64,000 nucleotides of DNA from Neovahlkampfia damariscottae (taxonomy: Eukaryota > Heterolobosea > Selenaionea > Neovahlkampfiida > Neovahlkampfiidae): the NCBI GenBank assembly GCA_016618085.1, contig JABLTG010000084.1, positions 21,537 through 85,536 of the forward strand, given 5' to 3'. Positions 12,966 to 64,000 of this stretch are shown here, piece after piece; within the stretch, counting starts at the first letter, position 1; every line of letters begins with the position of its first letter. The translations under genes were made by a program, and so were the position numbers. The notes beneath the pieces were generated by a model, which was not told the origin of the DNA, made no database searches, and worked only from the letters and a program-made list of their open reading frames with translations.

Positions 12966-14997
12966 ATGAGTAGTTGGCAAGAGTTCAATGATGAAGAATT
13001 TGACTTTTCCCAGGAAGACCAAGTAAAATACATTGAACTAACCATTGAAAGGACGAAGAAGAGCAACTATACACTTCTCAGAAAGATTCAATTATTTTTT
13101 TAATTGATTCAAGCAAAGCCATGTTCGAAGAAAAATTTGAAAATGACATTGAAGCCTTTTATTTTGCTGTAAAATCTGCTGCTAATGTTTACTGCGACAA
13201 AATTATTTCATCAAATAGCGATTTACTTGGAACAGTTTTTTTTGGCACCGTAAAACAAAAAAAAAAAATTGAAAAAAAAAGAAAGAAAAAAAAAATGAAT
13301 TTGATTTTGAAGGTATTTATACTTTCACAGAACTTGATAATCCAGATGCCCAATCTATCAAAAAATTAGAAAATTTGTCTGAAAACAAAAATTTTGAAGA
13401 TTATGGTCATGGTGACTATGAAATCAATGAAGCTTTATGGATTTGTCAACACTTATTTTCACATGTACCAAAATCAGTTGGTTACAAAAGAATATTTTTA
13501 TTAACAAATGATGAAAATCCATGTGAAAAAGAAAATTCATTGAAAAAGGCAATTGAAAGATCAAAAGAATTACTTGAAAATGACATCACTATTGAATTAT
13601 TTGTTTTAAAAAGTCAAAAAAGAGACTTTGATTCAAGTTTATTTTGGGAGAAAATTATTGCTCGGGATGAAGATGATTATTCAGATGGAAAAATTACGTT
13701 TGATTCTTGTGAAAAATTTGATCAATTGAGAGAAAAAGTTAGAAGAAAAGAATTCAAAAAAAGAACATTAACATCATTAGAATTAAAAATTGGAAATAAT
13801 ATTTCACTTGGAGTTGGTCTTTATAATTTAATTAGTTCTGCAAAAAAAGATTCAGCAATTTGGCTTCAAAATGAAAATAATCTTCCAATAAAAACAGAAA
13901 CAAAACAAATTTGTGAAGATACAGGTTCAGAATTAATGAAGAATGACATTAAAGTTTATTTTGATTATGGAAAGAAAAGAGGTATTTTTGAAAAAGAAGA
14001 AATTCAAAAACTTTCAACTATAACTGACCAAGGATTAACATTAATTGGTTTCAAACCAAAGTCAAGACTAAAAGTTTATCATAATTACAAAAGTTCATTA
14101 TTTGCATATCCAAATGATCACTTGTTTTCTGGAAGTTCTGTTGCACTTTCTGCTCTTTTGAAAAAGATGATTGAAATGGATAAAATAGCAATTTGTACAA
14201 TGACACAAAGAAAGAATTCATCTCCTGTTTATGTTGCATTAATTCCACAAGAAGAAGAGTTAGATGAAGATCAAACACAAATTTCACCGCCTGGATTTAA
14301 TGTGATCTATCTTCCTTATGCAGACGGAATTAGAAAACTTCTTAGCTTTGAAAGAGAAGAAAATCCAACTGAAAAACAAGTGTTAAAGGCAAAGAAACTT
14401 GTCAGTAAACTGTATATTGACTTTTCAAGTTGTAACTTTGAAAATCCATCATTGCAACAACATTATGCAAGTTTACAAGCATTGGCATTAGATCAAAAAG
14501 AATTGGATGAAGTAACTGATTATGTTAAACCTGATATTGAAGGAATGTCAAAATATTGTCAAACTGTTGAAGATTTCAAAGATAGTGTCTATCCAACTGA
14601 TTACACATTCGAAGAAGCAGAAAAAAAACCAAAAAGTACCAAGAAAAGAAAGGGGAGAGATGATTCAGATGATGAAATTGATACTAAAAAGAAAGTTAAA
14701 AAGGAAGATACTGATGATGAACCACCAAAGAAAGCAACCAAGAGACCAAATACAACTGTGGTGAAATCAAGAAAGAAAAAAGTTGAATCTCAAGAATCCA
14801 TTGATGAAAGTCAATCACAAGATGCAAGTGATGAAGAAATAGATGTTGTATCTCTTTGTAAAAATGGTCATCTTGGAAACTTGAAAAATGATGTGCTCAA
14901 AGCATTTTTAAAACAATATAAACTCTCCGTGAGTGGAAAGAAACAAGATCTTATCCAAAGAATTGAAGATTATTTAAAAAAAAGAGGAAAAATTTAA
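12966..14997 (+). CDS. Ku70, DNA double-strand-break end-binding subunit
   Basis: Exons 12966-13022, 13052-13249, 13282-14997; introns 29 and 32 nt; 656 residues. Ku70 with Ku80 forms the ring that binds broken DNA ends in non-homologous end joining, and it also works at telomeres. The N-terminal vWA-like domain begins IIFLIDSSKAMFEEKF and includes YTFTELDNPDAQSIK and FLLTNDENP. The beta-barrel core follows (GLTLIGFKPKSRLK, TMTQRKNSSPVYVALIPQEE). An acidic/basic linker with likely nuclear localisation signals leads to a C-terminal SAP domain (NDVLKAFLKQYKLSVSGKK). The second intron was placed where KNEFDFEGIYTFTEL becomes continuous. A Ku80 partner is not in this window. Confidence 0.93.
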
Positions 14998-15057
14998 TTA
15001 AAGTTTAATTAAATTTTTGAAAATTGAGTTTGTTAAATTTGTGAACAAAAATTTTTG

Positions 15058-15175
15058 AAGTTTCCTAATTGGGATAATTCCCCGTTAATAAGTAGTAGGG
15101 GGCTTTCCCGAATTGACATATTACGGTTCACGCCTCCTGATCCGCTGAGAACAACAAAAAATCGTTCAAAAAGGT
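15058..15175 (+). repeat. Left terminal inverted repeat
   Basis: This 118-bp arm pairs with 15979-16098 read on the other strand, with only a handful of mismatches and one or two single-base length differences in the C and G runs. The match stops just after a TTCAAAAAGGT segment. Confidence 0.85.
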
Positions 15176-15978
15176 TGATATTCCTTATTTTCGCTTTGAA
15201 AATAAGTAAAACTAACATTATGTCGTCCAGCCATAAAATACCCCAAAGAACAAGAATTAAATTTTGAGGTAAAAGAATAAATGAAATTTGAATTGTTAAT
15301 TTGTGTTGGTTGTTCAACATTTTGCTTTTGATTCCAATCACCGATAGAATTTATCCAATTATGTGGACTTGCACCCGAATTATCTCCATTGAAATGAAAG
15401 CAAACATACCAAGGATCAATTAACTTTTTGATTTATGGATTTTTGTTTAAAAAATCTTCCCATTCCAAATAAAAGTTGTCATAAGTTTGAATAGATATTT
15501 TTTTTGAATTTTTTAAATCAATAGAGCCTCTGCATTTCATTTTTTCAATAATATTTACTCTTTCTTTTTTCATCCATTTCACCCATGTTTTTTTTGAAAT
15601 GTCTTTGATACTACTAAAATATTTAGAAACTGAAAATATTCCACATATTGCATCAACAGTATACGAAAAAAAAAAATTAGTGGAAACCTTCTATTTGTTC
15701 GGTAGACTGAACAAATTGGTTTGTCAACCGACTCGCTATCTTTTTCCTTCGAAAAAGAAATCAAAAGAACCTTTTTCTCTGTTATTTCAATATATTTTTA
15801 TGAGACACTTTTAAAATGAGGAGAAAAGAAATGAGTTTTATTCTTGTATCAGAGTTTAAATTTTCGGAAATTTGACTTCTTTTTTGATTTATGAAGAGAA
15901 ATGAATTGATATTTTTCGTTTCTCATTGAATTTTACAAAGGGGAAATTGATGTTTTTCTTCAGGCAAATTTTATGATG

Positions 15979-16098
15979 ACCTTTTTGAACGATTTTTTGT
16001 TGTTCTCAGCGGATCAGGAGGTGTGGACCGTAATATGTCAATTCGGGAAAGCCCCCCTACTACTTATTAACGGGGGAATTTTCCCAATTAGGAAACTT
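15979..16098 (-). repeat. Right terminal inverted repeat
   Basis: This is the reverse-complement copy of 15058-15175. Differences from the left arm are small (for example one extra C in the five-C run and GTCCAC instead of GTTCAC), so the two arms have had little time to diverge or have been homogenised. Confidence 0.85.
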
Positions 16099-16267
16099 GA
16101 AAAAAGATGACCAATGAAACTTGAAAAATTTTTACTTTAATGCAAAAAAATTGCTTAAAAATTCATCTTTATTCGTAAGAAATACAGGTTTGTTTTCGCG
16201 TTTCATTTGATTGGATTTTTTTTTTAATGGCAACTTTTCATTGGCCTGTCATCGGAGTAAGGAGAGA

Positions 16268-19200
16268 ATGGAGTTTGAAAACAACTACTCAGAAGGTGAA
16301 GTGATCTTTTCATCATCGAAAACTGTTATCCACAAAGGTTCAAGAAAAACCGATTCACTTGGAGTTATCATAAAAAAATCATCTGAAACTGTTGTCTCTC
16401 TTGCCACTACAGAATCTTTCAAAAAAGATTTTGAATACACAAAAATGCTTTATGAGTATAATGATGAATACTTTTTAAACATGTTGGAAATTGTTGAATT
16501 AACCAATGGTTCTCTCTTGCTAGTAGAAGAAGATGAAGGTTTGGGTCTACAAAACTTGCTTCAAGAAAAAGTTACTTATGAACCTAAAGAGTTTTTAAAA
16601 CTTGCTGAAGATATGACTAAAGCTTTACATCATGCTCATACAAAACAAGTTCTTCACAGAGACATTAAGCTTGCTAATTTTATTGTTAGCAAAAAAAATA
16701 ACAAACCAAAGCTAATTGATTTCGGTTTGAGCACTATAGTTACAAGAAAATCACCTTCAGTTTCATGTCCAAATCCTATCGGAACTTATTCATACATGGC
16801 TCCAGAGCAAACAGGAAGAATTTCAAAAAACATAGATTTTAGAAGTGATATTTATTCATTAGGAATTTCATTTTATGAATTACTCACAGGAAAGGTTCCT
16901 TTTGATGGTGACAACATGGCTTTAGTTCATGCTCACATCACAAAAAAAATTCCAAACATCAAAAATGTACCTGATGCTGTTAATGAAGTTATTCAAAAAA
17001 TGTGTTCAAAAAATCCATCAGAAAGATATTTTTCAGCTTTTGGTGTTGCTAAAGATTTAGAATTCATCAACAAAAATTTTCAGAAAATTCCAGAAAACTT
17101 CAAAGCAGGACAATTTGATACAAAAGGATTTGAAATTCCAAACAAGTTGTACGGAAGAGACAAAGAACTAAAGAAGTTAAAAGATATTATAACAGAACAT
17201 GAAAGTGATATGTGTCTGATATCTGGTGTTTCAGGTATGGGAAAATCCAGATTAGTTGAAGAACTTATGAAAGAAAAAACAATGGACTTATTAATGTCTT
17301 ATGGGAAATTTGATCAGTTTAACAGGTTAGTTCCATATTCAGCATTGTTAAGGTTTGATCTAAATTTGTCTAAACCATGTTTTTTTAGTATTATCAAATC
17401 ATTGACCACCAAATTACTTTCAGACAATAATACAGAAAAGAATAGCATCATTTCTCGCTTAAAATTAGAATTAAAACAAAATGGTGCTATTTTAATAACA
17501 CTTGTACCTGAAGTTGAATTACTTATTGGGAAAAAAGAACCTGTTGAATCGCTCACTTCTTTGAAGGACACTCAAGATAGACTTTTTGAAACTTTTTTCA
17601 AATTTTTTGATTCTTTTACAGAGAGTAAATTGATACTTGTAGTTGATGATTTACAATGGGCAGATGCTTCAAGCTTCCTTTTCTTACAAAAATTCCTCGC
17701 TTCAAGTCATAAATTTTTTATCATTGGTGCTTATCGAGATAATGAAGTAGGAACAAATCATCCACTTGCAATGATAATCAATGAACATAAAAATATTTAC
17801 AATATCAATATCCAACCTTTGAGATTGGAAGATTTGAATGAAATGGTTGCAGAAACCTTGAATTCAACGAATCAAAAAACAATAGAGCTCACTGAATTAA
17901 TTCACAAAAAGACATTAGGAAATCCATTCTTCTCGAGAGAATTTATCAATACTCTTTATGAAGAGGAATCATTTGTCCAAAAAAATGATACCTGGAAATG
18001 GGATATTGAAAAAGTAGAAAAAATGAATTATAGTTCGAATGTCATTGATTTTATGATTCAAAATTTACAAAAGAAATCAAAAAGACTTCAAAAATTACTT
18101 AGTAGAGCTGCTTGTATTGGAAATACTTTTAAAATTGATGAATTAAAGTGGATATGGGATGAAGAAACAACTGTTGAAAGTGATTTATTTGAACCAGTTA
18201 AAGAAGGATGGTTATTTCGTGTGAGTTCAAATGAATACAAATTCTTTCATGATAGATTACAAGAAGCTTCATATGAATTATTTCCAAAAGAAGAAAGAGA
18301 AAAGATTCATTTGGTCATTGGTAATTTATTATTGAAAGGATTTAGAAAACAAAATTCAGTTGAGAAGAATATTTTTAAAATTATCAATCATTTAAACATG
18401 GCAAAAGAAAACTTTGAAGATAAAAAAGAACTTTTAAGTTTGAATCTATTGGCTGCAAAAAAATCGTTAGAAAATAGTGCTTCTTTAGAAGCTTTAAAGT
18501 TTTCAACTAATGCTTTGGAATTATCTGATGAAGATATTTGGGAAAAAGATTACCCAACTGCTTTAGAACTTCATGGTATTCATGCAACTACTACATATGC
18601 CAATTCTTTACTTGACCAATGTGAAGAACAATACAATCTTCTTTTGAAAAAAGCAGTTGGAAGATATGATATTTTAACTGTTTATGCTAATTATATGAGA
18701 ATGTGCTCTCTTACAATTCAATATGATAAAGCATATAATCTATACGTGGAAACATTAAAAATGTTTGATTTGACAAAAGATATTGTTTGTCCAGATGTTG
18801 CACAAGTTTATGGATGGACTTTAATTTTGAAAGGAAAAATCAATGAAGAAGTCAAAAAAATTGGAGGAATGAAAAAAATTGTTAATGCAAAAACATGTGA
18901 AGATAAAGAATTGTCATTGTTTTTGAGACTTTCATTAGAATCCCTAGATATTATATTTTTAGCTCCTGGTGCAAATCCATTAATGTTCATTACAGGTGCC
19001 ATGATCTCATTGTACTATTATTTAACTGAAGGATTACCACATGTTGCTCCAGTTGGAATTGCTATTGCAGGTTGGATTTATTCATTCTTTTTCAAAGAAT
19101 CAGATGGTTATGTTTTGACAACATCTGCTGAAGTGCTACATTCATTGGAAAAGAATCCGACCTATAACGTTGTTTGTTTACATTACATACTTGCTGTTGG

Positions 19201-21667
19201 TAGTATTACAGGAGGAAATTTTCAAAAACAACAATATCATTTAAACACTGCTGTAAACCATGCAATGACACATGGGGAGTATTTATATGGTGCTTATAGT
19301 ATTAATTCTATCCCTCTTGCTTTGAATGGTGATCACTTTCCAACGTTATATGCAAAGATGAAAAAACATCAAAAATGGACTTTAGAAATTAAGAGTTATT
19401 TTGCTTCTGACTTTCTTGAAGTAATGATCAATTTTGTTGGTGATTTATGTGGAATTTCAAAATACAATCCTCAATATTCAATCCCTACAATCAGACAATT
19501 GAAATGTGGAGATTCTACACTTCCAGCGATTGAAGGAATACTTAATTATCACAAAGGATTATATGACATTGCTTTAGGATATTTTAATGAAGCAGAACCT
19601 GTTGGTGATAATTCACAAGGTCTTTTCGATTTTTATGAAAGAAAATTCTATCATTGTATGACACTCATTGCAATATATAAGAAATCAAAAGATGAAAAAA
19701 CAGAAACAAAAATTAAAGAATGTCTAAAAGATTTCAAAATTTATGGTGATCTGAGTCCTGAATATTTAAGTCCTAAATATAAATTAATGGTAGTTTATTT
19801 TGAATCTACTCAACAAATTGAAGATAAAATCAAAATTTTATCAAAATTTGAAGAAGTCTATCAATTAATGTCAAAATTAGGTCTTGTCATTCCATCTGCT
19901 GTAACGACTGAATGTACATTGGAATTTGCACTTGAAAATGATTTTCCAATGGGTGTTTGCAGAATGTACTTTGGAAATGCTTTGAAAATTTGGACAGGAT
20001 TAGCAGCAAAAACCAAAGTTGATATTCTCAAAAAAAAATACAGTAAATTCTCAAATGTCTTGTCAAGAAAATCAAGTGCATCCATAACTAATTCAACAAC
20101 AAATGCTACAACGATAGGTAATGAATCAATTCAAATTGAAAGTGCTTCTTTGGATATGATGAGTATCATTAAAGCATCACAAGCACTTTCTGTTGAATTA
20201 ACAATTTCAAGTTTAATTGATAAAGTATTACATATAATTATTGAAAATACAGGCGCTGAAATTGGAGCTTTATTCTTGGTTGGGAAAGAAGGAGAATATA
20301 TTGAAGCTTCAATCAAACATGGAAGGGTGAATAATCTCCATAAATTGACAAATGAATATGAAGAGAATGAAATGTTCTGTTCACTTTTATTGATAATGGC
20401 AAAAACATTAAGAAAACCTGTGATTATCAATGATGTTTCTAGTTCTGAATATTCAGATAATGATTATTTGAAAAAAGAAAAAATTAAATCGATTTGTATT
20501 CATCCAATATTTAAAGGAAAAAAATATATTGGGGCAATTTATTTAGAAAATAAAACATTAGAAGGAATTTTTGATGAAGAAAGAAAAGAAATTTTAGATC
20601 ATATTTCATCTCAATTAGCTATTTCCTATGAAAATGCGAAACTATATGATGATATGAATTCATTAAATTTGTCTTATGAAAGATTTTTACCAAAGGAATT
20701 TTTGAAACAATTAGGAAAAGGAGATGTTAGAAATGTGAACAAAGGAGATGCATCAACAAAGAAAATATGTGTGCTATTTTCAGATATTAGATCTTTCACA
20801 GATATCACGGAAAAAATGAATCCTGAAGAATCATTTTCTTTCATCAATGGAATTTTATCATATTTAGCTCCTATTATTTCAAAACATAATGGTTTTATTG
20901 ATAAATTCTTTGGTGATTGTATTATGGCATTATTTCCTTATGGTGTAGATGATTCAGTGAAATGTGGATTTGAAATGTTATCTGTTTTAAAATTGTACAA
21001 CAAAGAATGTCGTCAAAATTTATCTCCTGTTAATATTGGAATTGGAATTCATTATGGAAATGTGATGATTGGAACAATAGGAGATGATGAGAGAATTGAT
21101 GCAACAGTTATTTCTGACACTGTGAATACTGCATCAAGAGTTGAATCATTAACCAAAGCATTAGGATCAACTTTTGTTGTTACAGAAGATATCCTTCAAA
21201 ATACTCAACTAATTTATAAAAATCGTTACATTGGGAAATATTTATTAAAAGGAAAACAAATTCCTATTGCTCTTTTCAACATGATTCCTGAAGATGATGA
21301 ATCAATTAACGTTGAAGAATTCACAAATGGAATTCAATTTTTTGAATTAGGAAATTTCCAAAGAGCAGAGGAAATTTTCAATTCATTGGATGATAAAACT
21401 TCTAAGTATCTTCAAAATGTTTCAAAGAAATATGGGTATTATTTATTCAATAAAGAATGGTCAGGTGAAATTAAAATTGATAAAGATGGAAATTTAGTTG
21501 ACTTGGAAAATGAATTGATTGTCGAAAATAAAATTCAAAAATATTCAGACGAAGAAAAATTGAAAATTTTAACAGATTTACTTTCAAGTAGTGACAATGG
21601 AGAAATTTTGAAATTAATTTCAAAACAAAATCCAGATAAAATGAATGAAATATTAAAAAAATATTAA
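16268..21667 (+). CDS. Intronless Ser/Thr kinase - AAA ATPase - GAF - adenylate cyclase
   Basis: A single exon of 1799 residues. The ATG at 16268 is chosen because upstream codons in the frame offer only a TTG. A protein kinase domain comes first, with HRDIKLANFIV (near residue 131), DFGLS and APEQTGRISKN-DFRSDIYSLGI. A STAND-like ATPase follows with P-loop GVSGMGKSRL (near 319) and LVVDDLQWADASS, then a long helical-repeat region. A GAF domain covers about 1305-1450. A class III cyclase covers about 1495-1690 with metal residues in FSDIRSF and FFGDCIMALF. The specificity residues are Lys (FIDKFFGD) and Asp (VISDTVN), which favours ATP over GTP. The order kinase-ATPase-GAF-output is familiar from bacterial giant signalling proteins. 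It should make cAMP in response to a ligand bound by GAF. Confidence 0.9.
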   Translation: MEFENNYSEGEVIFSSSKTVIHKGSRKTDSLGVIIKKSSETVVSLATTESFKKDFEYTKMLYEYNDEYFLNMLEIVELTNGSLLLVEEDEGLGLQNLLQEKVTYEPKEFLKLAEDMTKALHHAHTKQVLHRDIKLANFIVSKKNNKPKLIDFGLSTIVTRKSPSVSCPNPIGTYSYMAPEQTGRISKNIDFRSDIYSLGISFYELLTGKVPFDGDNMALVHAHITKKIPNIKNVPDAVNEVIQKMCSKNPSERYFSAFGVAKDLEFINKNFQKIPENFKAGQFDTKGFEIPNKLYGRDKELKKLKDIITEHESDMCLISGVSGMGKSRLVEELMKEKTMDLLMSYGKFDQFNRLVPYSALLRFDLNLSKPCFFSIIKSLTTKLLSDNNTEKNSIISRLKLELKQNGAILITLVPEVELLIGKKEPVESLTSLKDTQDRLFETFFKFFDSFTESKLILVVDDLQWADASSFLFLQKFLASSHKFFIIGAYRDNEVGTNHPLAMIINEHKNIYNINIQPLRLEDLNEMVAETLNSTNQKTIELTELIHKKTLGNPFFSREFINTLYEEESFVQKNDTWKWDIEKVEKMNYSSNVIDFMIQNLQKKSKRLQKLLSRAACIGNTFKIDELKWIWDEETTVESDLFEPVKEGWLFRVSSNEYKFFHDRLQEASYELFPKEEREKIHLVIGNLLLKGFRKQNSVEKNIFKIINHLNMAKENFEDKKELLSLNLLAAKKSLENSASLEALKFSTNALELSDEDIWEKDYPTALELHGIHATTTYANSLLDQCEEQYNLLLKKAVGRYDILTVYANYMRMCSLTIQYDKAYNLYVETLKMFDLTKDIVCPDVAQVYGWTLILKGKINEEVKKIGGMKKIVNAKTCEDKELSLFLRLSLESLDIIFLAPGANPLMFITGAMISLYYYLTEGLPHVAPVGIAIAGWIYSFFFKESDGYVLTTSAEVLHSLEKNPTYNVVCLHYILAVGSITGGNFQKQQYHLNTAVNHAMTHGEYLYGAYSINSIPLALNGDHFPTLYAKMKKHQKWTLEIKSYFASDFLEVMINFVGDLCGISKYNPQYSIPTIRQLKCGDSTLPAIEGILNYHKGLYDIALGYFNEAEPVGDNSQGLFDFYERKFYHCMTLIAIYKKSKDEKTETKIKECLKDFKIYGDLSPEYLSPKYKLMVVYFESTQQIEDKIKILSKFEEVYQLMSKLGLVIPSAVTTECTLEFALENDFPMGVCRMYFGNALKIWTGLAAKTKVDILKKKYSKFSNVLSRKSSASITNSTTNATTIGNESIQIESASLDMMSIIKASQALSVELTISSLIDKVLHIIIENTGAEIGALFLVGKEGEYIEASIKHGRVNNLHKLTNEYEENEMFCSLLLIMAKTLRKPVIINDVSSSEYSDNDYLKKEKIKSICIHPIFKGKKYIGAIYLENKTLEGIFDEERKEILDHISSQLAISYENAKLYDDMNSLNLSYERFLPKEFLKQLGKGDVRNVNKGDASTKKICVLFSDIRSFTDITEKMNPEESFSFINGILSYLAPIISKHNGFIDKFFGDCIMALFPYGVDDSVKCGFEMLSVLKLYNKECRQNLSPVNIGIGIHYGNVMIGTIGDDERIDATVISDTVNTASRVESLTKALGSTFVVTEDILQNTQLIYKNRYIGKYLLKGKQIPIALFNMIPEDDESINVEEFTNGIQFFELGNFQRAEEIFNSLDDKTSKYLQNVSKKYGYYLFNKEWSGEIKIDKDGNLVDLENELIVENKIQKYSDEEKLKILTDLLSSSDNGEILKLISKQNPDKMNEILKKY

Positions 21668-21971: not shown

Positions 21972-24826
21972 TTATTCATCTGCTTTTTGTTTTTCTTTTT
22001 TGATGTCAACAGCGCCTGTTTCTTTATTGTAAGTTCTAATTTCAACATCATATTCATTTCCTGAAAGTAATCTTTCCATTAATATTTCGACATTGTGATG
22101 AATGATCCATTTATTTCTGCTTTCTTTTTCAAATTCGACAATTACATCAAATAATGGTTTATATTTCAATTTTCGTTGAATTTTGTCTTTTTGTGATTTA
22201 ATATTTTTGTCACTCATGATGACAGATTCAATTCCTCCAACCAATCCAACAACTTAAAAGAAAAATTAATTTGAAGTTTTCATTTACCTGTTTGATTCTT
22301 TTCCAATGTTTTAACTGTTCCATGAGCAGATGCATATAATAATATTCCTCTTTGTGAACATTCTTTGGTTGCAAATACTTCCATTTGAGTTCCAATTTCA
22401 TCAATAATTAAACAATCAGGTGTATGATTTTGAATTGCTTCAATCATTATTTTTTCTTGATTTTTGGATTCGGGTATTTTCATTACTCTTGCATCTCCAA
22501 TACTCATATGTGGGACATTTCCAAATCCAGAAATTTCACTTGATGAATCAACAATTATGGTTCGGGAATTTGTTGAAATGTATCTGGCAATATCCCTTAT
22601 GAATGAAGTCTTCCCTGATCCAGGTGATCCTAAAAATAAAATTGATTTCTTTGCATCTAAAATATCACTAATTGCTTGGGAAATTCCAATAATTGGTTTT
22701 CCAACTCTCAATGTAATTCCAACAATATCATTAACAATACCTCGAATAACCGAAATTCTATGAAGATATTTTTCAAGTCCAGATCGATTATTTGGTAAAA
22801 TGGACAAATTACAAGTCACATAATCAATATCTTTTTGTGAAACCAATTCATCAGAAATTCTAATTTTTTTGTTTCCATAAAAATGTGCTTTTGGAATCCG
22901 ATTGAAATCCATTTCAATATCAATTAAATCTTCAATATTTTCATTTTCAAATTGTTTCATATAAGATTTAGGTAATATTTCAATTAACGCCATTACTTCA
23001 TCATTGTTAATTTTCAACTCTGGAATTCTTATGGATTGAATTTCTTCTTCTAATGTAATTTCTTCAAAAGATTCCTCTTCTGCTTTAAATTTTGATTTTT
23101 TCTCTAAAAACGAATCACTCAACTTTGCAAAGATGTCATGGCCATTCGATTTCTTGTCATATTTCACTTCAAATATTTCAGGGTAAAATTCTAAAAATTT
23201 TGGTAACGAATAAGGATGAACTAAAGTTCTTGATTCTTCTAATGAAAGCCAATCGAATATTTCTTCAATTTCAACCCATTTCCTTGAACAATTTTCTTTG
23301 ATTCGATTAATCATTTCCAAGTTAAATACTTTTGGTTTTCCTTTCATTATTTTTTCCCATTTCTCTGCTTTCCTTTTTTCTCCCATGATTGAAGGACGAC
23401 TGTACGGTTCGAAATCTAAAAATTTTTTGAATGAATTTTTCATTCCTTCTTCAATTAATAATGCATTTGCCATTGCATCATCCAAACCGCAATGAAATAA
23501 TTCATCAATCCCAAGATGATAATCACATTTCTCTTCATGTTTCAAAAATCTAGATGCTTGTCTTTCAACATACACAGCTTGTTCTTCATTCAAATCTGAT
23601 AAATATTGAATCAATTCATAAACATCAATGACTTTGATATTGAATTGAACATTTAAACGAGTTGAAATTGCCTCAAATGTATTGATTTCCGCTTTTTTAC
23701 CTTTGGCATACAAAATTGAAACATCTTTTGGATTGTATTCAATGAATTTTAAAAAATCATTCATCACTTGTTTCAATGAATCTTTTGCTAATTTTTTCAT
23801 TTTTCTGTACGGAAGACCATGAATGAATTTCTGTGTGAAATGAGCAGCCGAAGCAAGAGAAGAATCAAAATTGTTTGGTATATCAATGAATCTCTGAAAT
23901 TTGTCAACTATTTTTCCATTATCCAATCTTGATTTTACACAACCAATTTCAATAGGAATATAATTGTCTGCATGTGAAGTAATAAGTTCAAAATCTATGG
24001 AGTAAATATATGTTGGGTTTAAAGATTCTGATTTTTGTTTTGATGGTTCTTTGGATTTTGAACTGTTGTCTTTTGATTCTTTTATCTTTGCTTCTTCTTT
24101 CTTTAATTTTTTTTCAGTTCCAAATATCATTTTATTTTTTGTTTTCAATGCAACACTTCCACCTCCTTCACTGCGAACATCAAAATATTCATGGTTTAAT
24201 TTTAAAAAATTCGTTAATTTTCCATGTTTTAACTTCAAATAATTTCTTTCATCAATGAGCAAAGAATTCAAACGTCCAATATTCATTCCTTTCTGGTCTT
24301 TCAATAAATGTTGAATTTTTTGCAACAATATCTCTTCATTCATTTTTTCGGTAATTTCTTCAGTAACTTTTGTTTCTTTCAGTTTTGCAAACAACTCATC
24401 TTTTGAACCTCTGCCAATTTCAAAAATTTGAGGATGTGATTCAAGAAATTTGAGAACACCTCCGCATTGTTTGATAAATTTTTTTTCTTCTTTTGTTGCC
24501 TCTACAAGACACAAACTCATGAGAATCCATTCTTGCGAAAAATTTTCAATGATGCCTTTCATTAATTTGTTTTCCTCTGACATGTGGATTTTTTTATTAT
24601 TTTTCGTTTCTTTGATACTACTTTTCAATGTTACTTTTCCTCCACTATCTGTTGTTAAAGCAAAATATTTTGGATATTTTTTCAAGAATTTTCCAGGTTT
24701 ATTTTTTAAGTAATTTTTCATATCGTCTGTCAACTTGTTATACATTTCACTAATACTCATTTCATTTGAAACACCGTATTTCAAAATTATTTGTTCCAAA
24801 TAATTCAAAACAGTGATGTCGTCCAT
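21972..24826 (-). CDS. Winged-helix repeats + Maelstrom/DEDDh-like exonuclease + SpoIIIAA/Ycf45-type ATPase
   Basis: Exons on the minus strand 24826-22288 and 22252-21972; intron 35 nt; 939 residues. The start is MDDITVLNYL; an upstream ATG at 24943 would place the CCAAT motif inside the protein. Four winged-helix-like repeats end in FL-x3-P-x2-F (KFLKKYPKYFAL, KFLESHPQIFEI, NFLKLNHEYFDV, KFLEFYPEIFEV); three precede the nuclease domain and one follows it. The central domain (about 275-460) has YSIDFELI, IPIEIGCVKSRLDNG, AAHFTQKFIHGLP, EKCDYH and HCGLDDAMANA, fitting a DnaQ-like Maelstrom fold with DEDDh residues. The C-terminal ATPase has Walker A FLGSPGSGKTS, Walker B CLIIDEIG and SAHG, then IGGIES-type strands as in SpoIIIAA/Ycf45. 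A role in RNA or DNA surveillance is inferred only. Confidence 0.72.
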
Positions 24827-63599: not shown

Positions 63600-63820
63600 G
63601 ATAAAAAGTTGTTTTTGATTGGACAAAAGGAAAAATTGGGTATTTATCGAATCAGAATTGATCAACTAATTTTTGGCTGAATCGGAATATTTGATTTTTC
63701 CGTTACAAAGTGACCATTCGGAATCGTTTGTGAACTATATATAGATTTTCTAAATTCCGAAAAATTATAAATGGATGGAAAAATCAGAAAAGACGCCAAC
63801 AAAACAAATAGAGCAGGCTG

Positions 63821-64000
63821 ATGAGCAATAATGATCGATGCAATGAAAAATATATCACCAGTAAAAAAATCATAGAACAGTACGGAGTTTGTAATTCAAC
63901 ACTCAAACGATGGGCAAATGAAGGAAAAATTAGTAGTATCCGAACAATCGGAAACAAAAGGCTCTATGGATGTGATGACATTAGAAGAGTCTTTGGAGTT
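63821..64000 (+). CDS. tnpA: IS607-family serine transposase TnpA, N-terminal part (cut by the window end)
   Basis: The ATG at 63821 opens a frame that runs off the right edge (60 residues visible). It encodes a MerR-like helix-turn-helix: YITSKKIIEQYGV, STLKRWANEGKI, then SIRTIGNKRLYGCDDIRRV. The order of the helix-turn-helix, the IRT-x-G-x-KR wing and the DI segment is that of IS607 TnpA proteins, which join this domain to a serine recombinase. The catalytic half is beyond the window. IS607 elements are known in bacteria, archaea, giant DNA viruses and a few eukaryotes. No intron is visible, the codon choice (CGA, AGG, CTC, ATC) differs from neighbours, and a CCAAT motif is missing nearby. 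Confidence 0.72.
   Translation, partial: MSNNDRCNEKYITSKKIIEQYGVCNSTLKRWANEGKISSIRTIGNKRLYGCDDIRRVFGV

Follow-up and report, generated by a model that had tools for sequence, protein, structure and literature searches.

A composite gene of Neovahlkampfia damariscottae encodes a 939-aa protein that starts with three winged-helix repeats, continues with a Maelstrom (MAEL) domain and one more winged helix, the fourth, and ends in an ATPase of the SpoIIIAA/Ycf45 type. The gene lies in the 64,000-nucleotide stretch of genomic DNA analyzed here, which is called the window throughout. The protein is real and well supported as a domain fusion, and the mechanism that its domains suggest is plausible. 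The joining of MAEL to a Ycf45 ATPase seems to be new. The initial annotation, which was made from the sequence alone, knew of no protein with this order, and in agreement with it no described fusion of MAEL with a Ycf45-type ATPase was found in the literature, as searched through titles and abstract openings among the matches listed, with few subscription papers.

Gene model, domain architecture and neighbourhood

The positions of the gene and its domains are given in Table 1. The spliced translation on the minus strand agrees with the coordinates and strand first assigned to the gene, and adds the intron 22287-22253, which was absent from that assignment. The EukProt model P0001 is the identical 939-aa protein. 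At the intron site the paralogue C296 is interrupted likewise (34 nt), and the paralogues C61 and C3 have an uninterrupted frame.

Table 1. Composite gene of the window and the parts of its product
Feature	Position in window	Strand	Basis
Composite gene, 939-aa product	21972..24826	-	ATG 24826, stop ends 21972; spliced translation and EukProt P0001
GT-AG intron of 35 nt within ATPase domain	22253..22287	-	splice reading
Winged-helix repeat 1 (residues 2-70)	24617..24823	-	repeat model
Winged-helix repeat 2 (residues 84-151)	24374..24577	-	repeat model; WH_Egal best stretch 122-137
Winged-helix repeat 3 (residues 163-231)	24134..24340	-	repeat model
MAEL domain (residues about 268-478)	23393..24025	-	PF13017 51.1 bits; residues; family alignment
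Winged-helix repeat 4 (residues 501-571), MAEL-ATPase interval	23114..23326	-	repeat model
SpoIIIAA/Ycf45-type ATPase (residues about 615-939, intron-split)	21972..22984	-	PF19568, TIGR02858, Walker motifs

An accident of the gene model is an unlikely origin of the composite, because paralogues in the genome and three metagenomic relatives have a common domain order. That adjoining genes were merged into one model is extremely improbable. In favour of a merger, the EukProt model P0002, which represents the C61 copy, includes a piece of the upstream copy at its N terminus. However, all parts lie within one intronless frame each in C61 (836 aa) and C3 (860 aa), the intron of the window gene falls inside the ATPase and not at a domain junction, and the predicted metagenomic proteins P0003, P0004 and P0006 display the identical order of winged helices, MAEL and the start of the ATPase until their ends near the Walker A motif.

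Profile scores confirm the domain order that had been noted, including four winged-helix repeats, three before MAEL and one after. A repeat model trained without the 939-aa protein, on rows gathered by a model seeded from that protein's repeats, gives 22.5, 35.1, 34.0 and 29.7 bits for repeats 1-4, against a background of at most 8.2 bits from 500 shuffles of the protein and from the window's other ORFs of at least 180 aa. WH_Egal (PF23713) reaches 34 bits over the whole protein (cut-off 27) with no single stretch passing alone, and PORR reaches 28.5 bits on the N-terminal piece (Pfam, cut-off 22.3). Single winged-helix units remain below the Pfam cut-offs; five of 13 match WH_Egal at E up to 1, the best at E 0.0047. 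The winged-helix profile has no significant match among solved structures (best E 0.079). LOTUS/OST-HTH (PF12872) has no Pfam match in the 939-aa protein, and paralogue C61 scores 16.1 bits against its cut-off of 23.8. The winged-helix unit between MAEL and ATPase was not found in C61 and C3.

The assignment of the central domain to Maelstrom, proposed from motifs, is borne out by the Pfam profile PF13017 (cut-off 22), which gives 51.1 bits for the domain piece taken by itself and 47.3 bits at the window gene in the six-frame genome search. Ordinary exonuclease families stay below their cut-offs on the same piece (RNase_T 15.9 bits against 24, Rv2179c-like 24.9 bits against 27), and an ordinary exonuclease in place of MAEL was rejected on these scores. 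The motifs are all found at SIDFEL 276-281, PIEIGC 291-296, FIHGLP 334-339, EKCDYH 432-437 and FHCGLDDAMANA 444-455. Maelstrom is listed neither by hmmscan of the whole 939-aa chain nor in the precomputed Pfam list of P0001, presumably as a result of HMMER's filters. Profile searches of solved structures retrieved no animal MAEL chain, and the best PDB profile match of the MAEL region is 2p1j, a PolC-type DNA polymerase chain (E 5.4e-5). No HMG box was matched in the protein (Pfam, E up to 1).

The closing ATPase also belongs to the SpoIIIAA/Ycf45 family, as had been read from the sequence: Spore_III_AA (PF19568) scores 35.5 bits on the whole protein (Pfam, cut-off 27), and the Walker A motif GSPGSGKT (733-740) and the Walker B motif CLIIDEIG (805-812) are both intact. 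Matches to TIGR02858 (59.5 bits, cut-off 281.3) and VirB11 (29.2 bits, cut-off 249.95) place this part at the superfamily level only. Bacterial SpoIIIAA proper was rejected, since the TIGR02858 score is far below the equivalog cut-off.

The mobile-type DNA that had been noted nearby (15-16 kb and 63.8 kb) is present, and a link to the composite gene was not seen. At positions 15052-16104 of the window, about 1 kb is bounded by long inverted repeats, one of 78 nt with 97% complementarity and one of 32 nt with 94%; this segment resembles a non-autonomous hairpin element and is flanked by a Ku-type gene and a kinase-cyclase gene. The Ku-type protein (13273-14994) possesses Ku_N, Ku core, Ku_C and a SAP domain, and a single protein of 1818 aa, encoded at 16211-21664, combines protein kinase, AAA_16, GAF and guanylate cyclase domains. 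At 63815-64000 an ORF begins with a MerR/HTH_17-type helix-turn-helix and extends past the window end; the recombinase of IS607-like elements has a helix-turn-helix of this type.

Catalytic residues, relatives and evolution

The DEDDh-type residues D278, E280, H445 and D450 are present in the MAEL domain. The DxE and His-x4-Asp that had been read as those of an active DEDDh exonuclease therefore stand, but the middle Asp does not: matched by position in our own reading, it is Glu380, and seven of the eight aligned family members have Glu there. D278, E280 and H445 are kept in 7/8 sequences of the family alignment and D450 in 8/8, and the zinc-type ligands E293, C434, H437 and C446 are invariant (8/8). 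P0003 and P0004 display a shorter D-to-E distance in the alignment. The metagenomic P0006, which has no Maelstrom match in Pfam and whose family membership is set by alignment, carries S, K and E at the D, E and H positions and retains all four zinc ligands. Judged by these residues, catalysis is apparently dispensable in at least this one member, which seems to have a parallel in the animal loss of catalysis with zinc ligands retained. The MAEL nuclease of the 939-aa protein is probably active; its activity is likely rather than given because the middle acidic residue is Glu, here as in most members.

A total of five MAEL loci, all above cut-off (35.3-49 bits), and five SpoIIIAA loci, four of them above cut-off, were found by six-frame profile searches of the genome (a 20.4-Mb assembly of 307 contigs). 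Three full-length paralogues, C290 (the window gene), C61 and C3, combine winged helices, MAEL and ATPase. MAEL occurs without the ATPase in C240, which has a winged helix before it, and in C48, whose gene has an RRM-like start by eye without a Pfam match; the ATPase occurs without MAEL in C296 and C19, each with winged-helix units. On C61 (L001), a partial second ATPase C terminus is located directly upstream of the full composite gene and is joined to it in the P0002 model; this partial copy is probably a tandem duplication. On C48, a TnpB/Fanzor-like C-terminal part (L003 2375-2695; Cas12f1-like_TNB, 57.3 bits) immediately precedes the short MAEL gene. The initial annotation had proposed a search for the same domain order elsewhere, and the three metagenomic relatives P0003, P0004 and P0006 were found. 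Exact-word-sampled searches with the MAEL part (2 rows and 4 rows) returned metagenomic pieces and sequences of N. damariscottae itself, and nothing else; these searches missed the known P0003 and P0004 and are no measure of wider absence.

Identity between the paralogues is 66-68% in MAEL, 77-87% in the ATPase and 29-31% in the winged-helix part. NG86 dN/dS amounts to 0.26-0.30 for MAEL and 0.15-0.23 for the ATPase, where dS is high, so that the contrast is weightier than the values. For the winged-helix part it is 0.80, taken from the 31%-identical alignment of C290 and C3, the sole pair with computable dS. These figures would fit an engine that is conserved while the recognition part changes, or just weaker constraint on the repeats.

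ATPase trees were constructed from 79 rows (quick) and from 50 rows (careful, with 9 long branches and 20 near copies removed). The eight ATPases of the window-gene kind group together with full support, on a long stem; two MAEL-less ATPases are found in separate places inside this group. A single clade of all six MAEL-bearing rows was rejected (p-AU 0.006, for a group chosen after the quick tree), which implies two or more losses, or gains, of MAEL among the ATPase genes. On the simplest reading of these sequences, the fusion would already have existed before the metagenomic relatives split off, with at least two losses of MAEL; repeated gain of MAEL may be the alternative. In the MAEL tree, whose 8 rows are few and long-branched, the ATPase-bearing rows as one clade obtain p-AU 0.050. 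The nearest outside row in the ATPase tree is a Naegleria lovaniensis protein with a PF01612 exonuclease ahead of the ATPase (support 96/90 in the careful tree; to be read with caution, as the quick tree warned of long branches).

Proposed function and competing readings

We lean slightly towards the 939-aa protein being an ATP-driven 3'-5' exoribonuclease, with RNAs of an Argonaute/Dicer pathway as its most likely client. The winged-helix repeats, of Egalitarian/LOTUS/PORR type, would grip RNA, probably structured or double-stranded. The zinc-stabilised MAEL domain would trim the RNA 3' end with metal ions on D278, E280, E380 and D450 and with H445 as the general base. The Ycf45-type ATPase, kin of ring-forming secretion ATPases, would pull on, unwind or remodel the substrate or a protein partner at the expense of ATP, so that the nuclease could proceed. 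Within the Argonaute/Dicer pathway of the same genome, the most likely client would be a duplex small RNA or a targeted transcript, as may be compared with RIF4 of Trypanosoma brucei. The sequence itself shows the paralogue family, the domains in their order, both Walker motifs and the residues of catalytic and zinc type, whereas we infer the residue roles, the ring assembly, an ATP-powered translocation and the client. An RNA substrate is suggested by the kind of winged helices and by the MAEL enzymes that have been characterised; the ATPase family suggests the motor role, and genome co-occurrence and analogy suggest the small-RNA role. Points against the exoribonuclease are the Glu at the middle position, the residues lost in P0006, the low scores of single winged-helix units and the known roles of ATPase kin in secretion or plastids.

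Two Argonaute loci were found in the genome (L024 2034-3440 and L025 1629-3326), the second with PAZ, linker and Piwi, together with paired, Dicer-like RNase III domain matches on contigs C252, C22 and C286 (L026-L031). A small-RNA machine is plausible by analogy because the genome has these Argonaute and paired RNase III genes. Six-frame genome searches for RdRP and WH_Egal gave no match and their controls were equally silent, hence these searches are uninformative.

A MAEL domain that is catalytically weak or dead would act as a platform that binds RNA, like its counterparts in animal Maelstrom or Egalitarian, and the ATPase would remodel RNA-protein complexes without RNA decay. We hold this to be rather unlikely. 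Glu is able to replace Asp as a metal ligand, the other four DEDDh positions are kept in at least seven of the eight members, and the MAEL part is constrained by its dN/dS, all of which argue for an active nuclease. In favour of a platform are the Glu at the middle position in 7/8 members, the loss of D, E and H in P0006 beside intact zinc ligands, and animal MAEL, which is described as an inactive RNA binder (PMC4408791). A machine directed at DNA, with the winged helices on DNA and the nuclease and motor engaged in repair or against mobile DNA, is improbable. DNA is a frequent ligand of winged helices, some DnaQ-type exonucleases act on DNA, the best PDB profile match is the PolC-type chain 2p1j, and inverted-repeat and MerR-HTH mobile-type sequences lie within the window. 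However, the winged-helix families that match are RNA-recognition types (WH_Egal, PORR, OST-HTH), mostly below cut-off singly, and the characterised MAEL enzymes, those of Entamoeba and RIF4, act on RNA.

The PORR match of the N-terminal piece would also suit an organellar RNA factor, whose PORR-like repeats and Ycf45 ATPase, the latter of cyanobacterial origin, would help to process RNA in an organelle derived from the mitochondrion; for Naegleria gruberi and Phytophthora ramorum, PMC3087521 lists the YCF45 genes with cyanobacterial ancestry. But the N terminus, MDDITVLNYLEQ, is acidic and by eye unlike a targeting peptide, and we judge this reading decidedly improbable.

The ATP-driven exoribonuclease may further be one product of a powered Maelstrom exonuclease family, with a near-constant MAEL engine and Ycf45 motor, diversifying winged helices and repeated MAEL loss, forming a small set of tools that would survey RNA or control transposons alongside Argonaute; this wider picture is tentative. 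If true, it would provide the first Maelstrom nuclease coupled to ATP hydrolysis known to us, with MAEL in a slot that is elsewhere held by PF01612. Maelstrom is required for piRNA silencing in animals, and the natural fusion of MAEL with RNA-reading modules and an ATPase hints that ancestral MAEL may have acted on RNA in an energy-driven assembly. Moreover, the eukaryotic Ycf45 ATPases, which are little understood, gain a testable role, because in other proteins this ATPase is joined to a 3'-5' exonuclease of another kind.

Comparison with known systems

Active MAEL nucleases of protists are already known from Entamoeba and from T. brucei RIF4, and are not new. That protists have catalytic MAEL domains was predicted in 2008, in a screen that already noted the active site of RIF4 and named HMG, HDAC_interact and SR-25-like as MAEL partners in its available text; the words 'ATPase' and 'winged' are both absent from its main text (PMC2628886). 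Entamoeba MAEL was reported in 2015 as an active Mg/Mn-dependent exoribonuclease on single-stranded RNA (PMC4408791), and RIF4 is described as a 3'-5' RNAi exonuclease that prefers double-stranded RNA and converts duplex siRNA to single strands for AGO1 (PMC3359990). Entamoeba EHI_192630 and RIF4 share with the 939-aa protein a MAEL/DnaQ-type domain with catalytic-type residues, and the Entamoeba protein also the zinc residues; Entamoeba is further reported to have five MAEL genes (PMC2628886), as does the N. damariscottae genome. The Ycf45 ATPase and Egal-type repeats are not reported for the two enzymes in the available texts, and the middle Asp is replaced by Glu in the 939-aa protein.

Animal Maelstrom has the MAEL domain with the E-C-H-C zinc site in common with the 939-aa protein, but it has an HMG box, lacks the catalytic residues (PMC4408791) and is not known to carry an ATPase. 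Bombyx MAEL binds zinc on E137, C290, H293 and C302; D122 is the sole surviving DEDD residue and R306 occupies the last acidic position (PMC4408791). The spacings of D to E (15 residues), C to H (3), C to C (12) and C to the last acidic position (4) are the same in both proteins, whereas E to the first C is 153 residues there and 141 in the 939-aa protein, by the Bombyx numbering in the same source.

In Drosophila Egalitarian, three LOTUS-like winged helices and an exonuclease homology domain read structured RNA (PMC13186709). Its order of three such winged helices followed by an exonuclease-fold domain resembles that of the 939-aa protein. It differs in having another exonuclease homology domain, followed by a tetrahelical region, and an ATPase is not mentioned in the available text (PMC13186709).

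The ATPase domain is shared with Ycf45, SpoIIIAA and the plant SEEDLING PLASTID DEVELOPMENT 1, where R3H (PF01424) and/or PF25516 are found instead of MAEL. Identity of the ATPase to six R3H-type or plant rows (P0012, P0013, P0017, P0024, P0026 and P0050) is 34-39%. The ATPase kin of known biology act in secretion or in plastids. Seven PF01612 matches were found on 6 contigs of the N. damariscottae genome, with a SpoIIIAA match on none of these contigs. The PF01612 exonuclease and the exonuclease homology domain of Egalitarian are both of the DEDDy type.

At least 17 of the 76 proteins among the matches listed combine PF01612 with PF19568, for example P0005 from Naegleria lovaniensis and P0011 from a diatom. 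Five of the 17 were rescanned, and LOTUS was above cut-off only in P0022 (ENA), in which two LOTUS/OST-HTH stretches (41.1 bits, cut-off 23.8) are followed by the exonuclease (49.4 bits) and then the ATPase. P0023 has LOTUS at 22.5 bits, just under the cut-off of 23.8, and no LOTUS appears in P0005 among the 25 of 35 families shown. These proteins match the slot order of the 939-aa protein, with winged helices in some cases, then an exonuclease and then a Ycf45-type ATPase, and differ from it in the exonuclease slot, which is occupied by PF01612 in them and by MAEL in the 939-aa protein.
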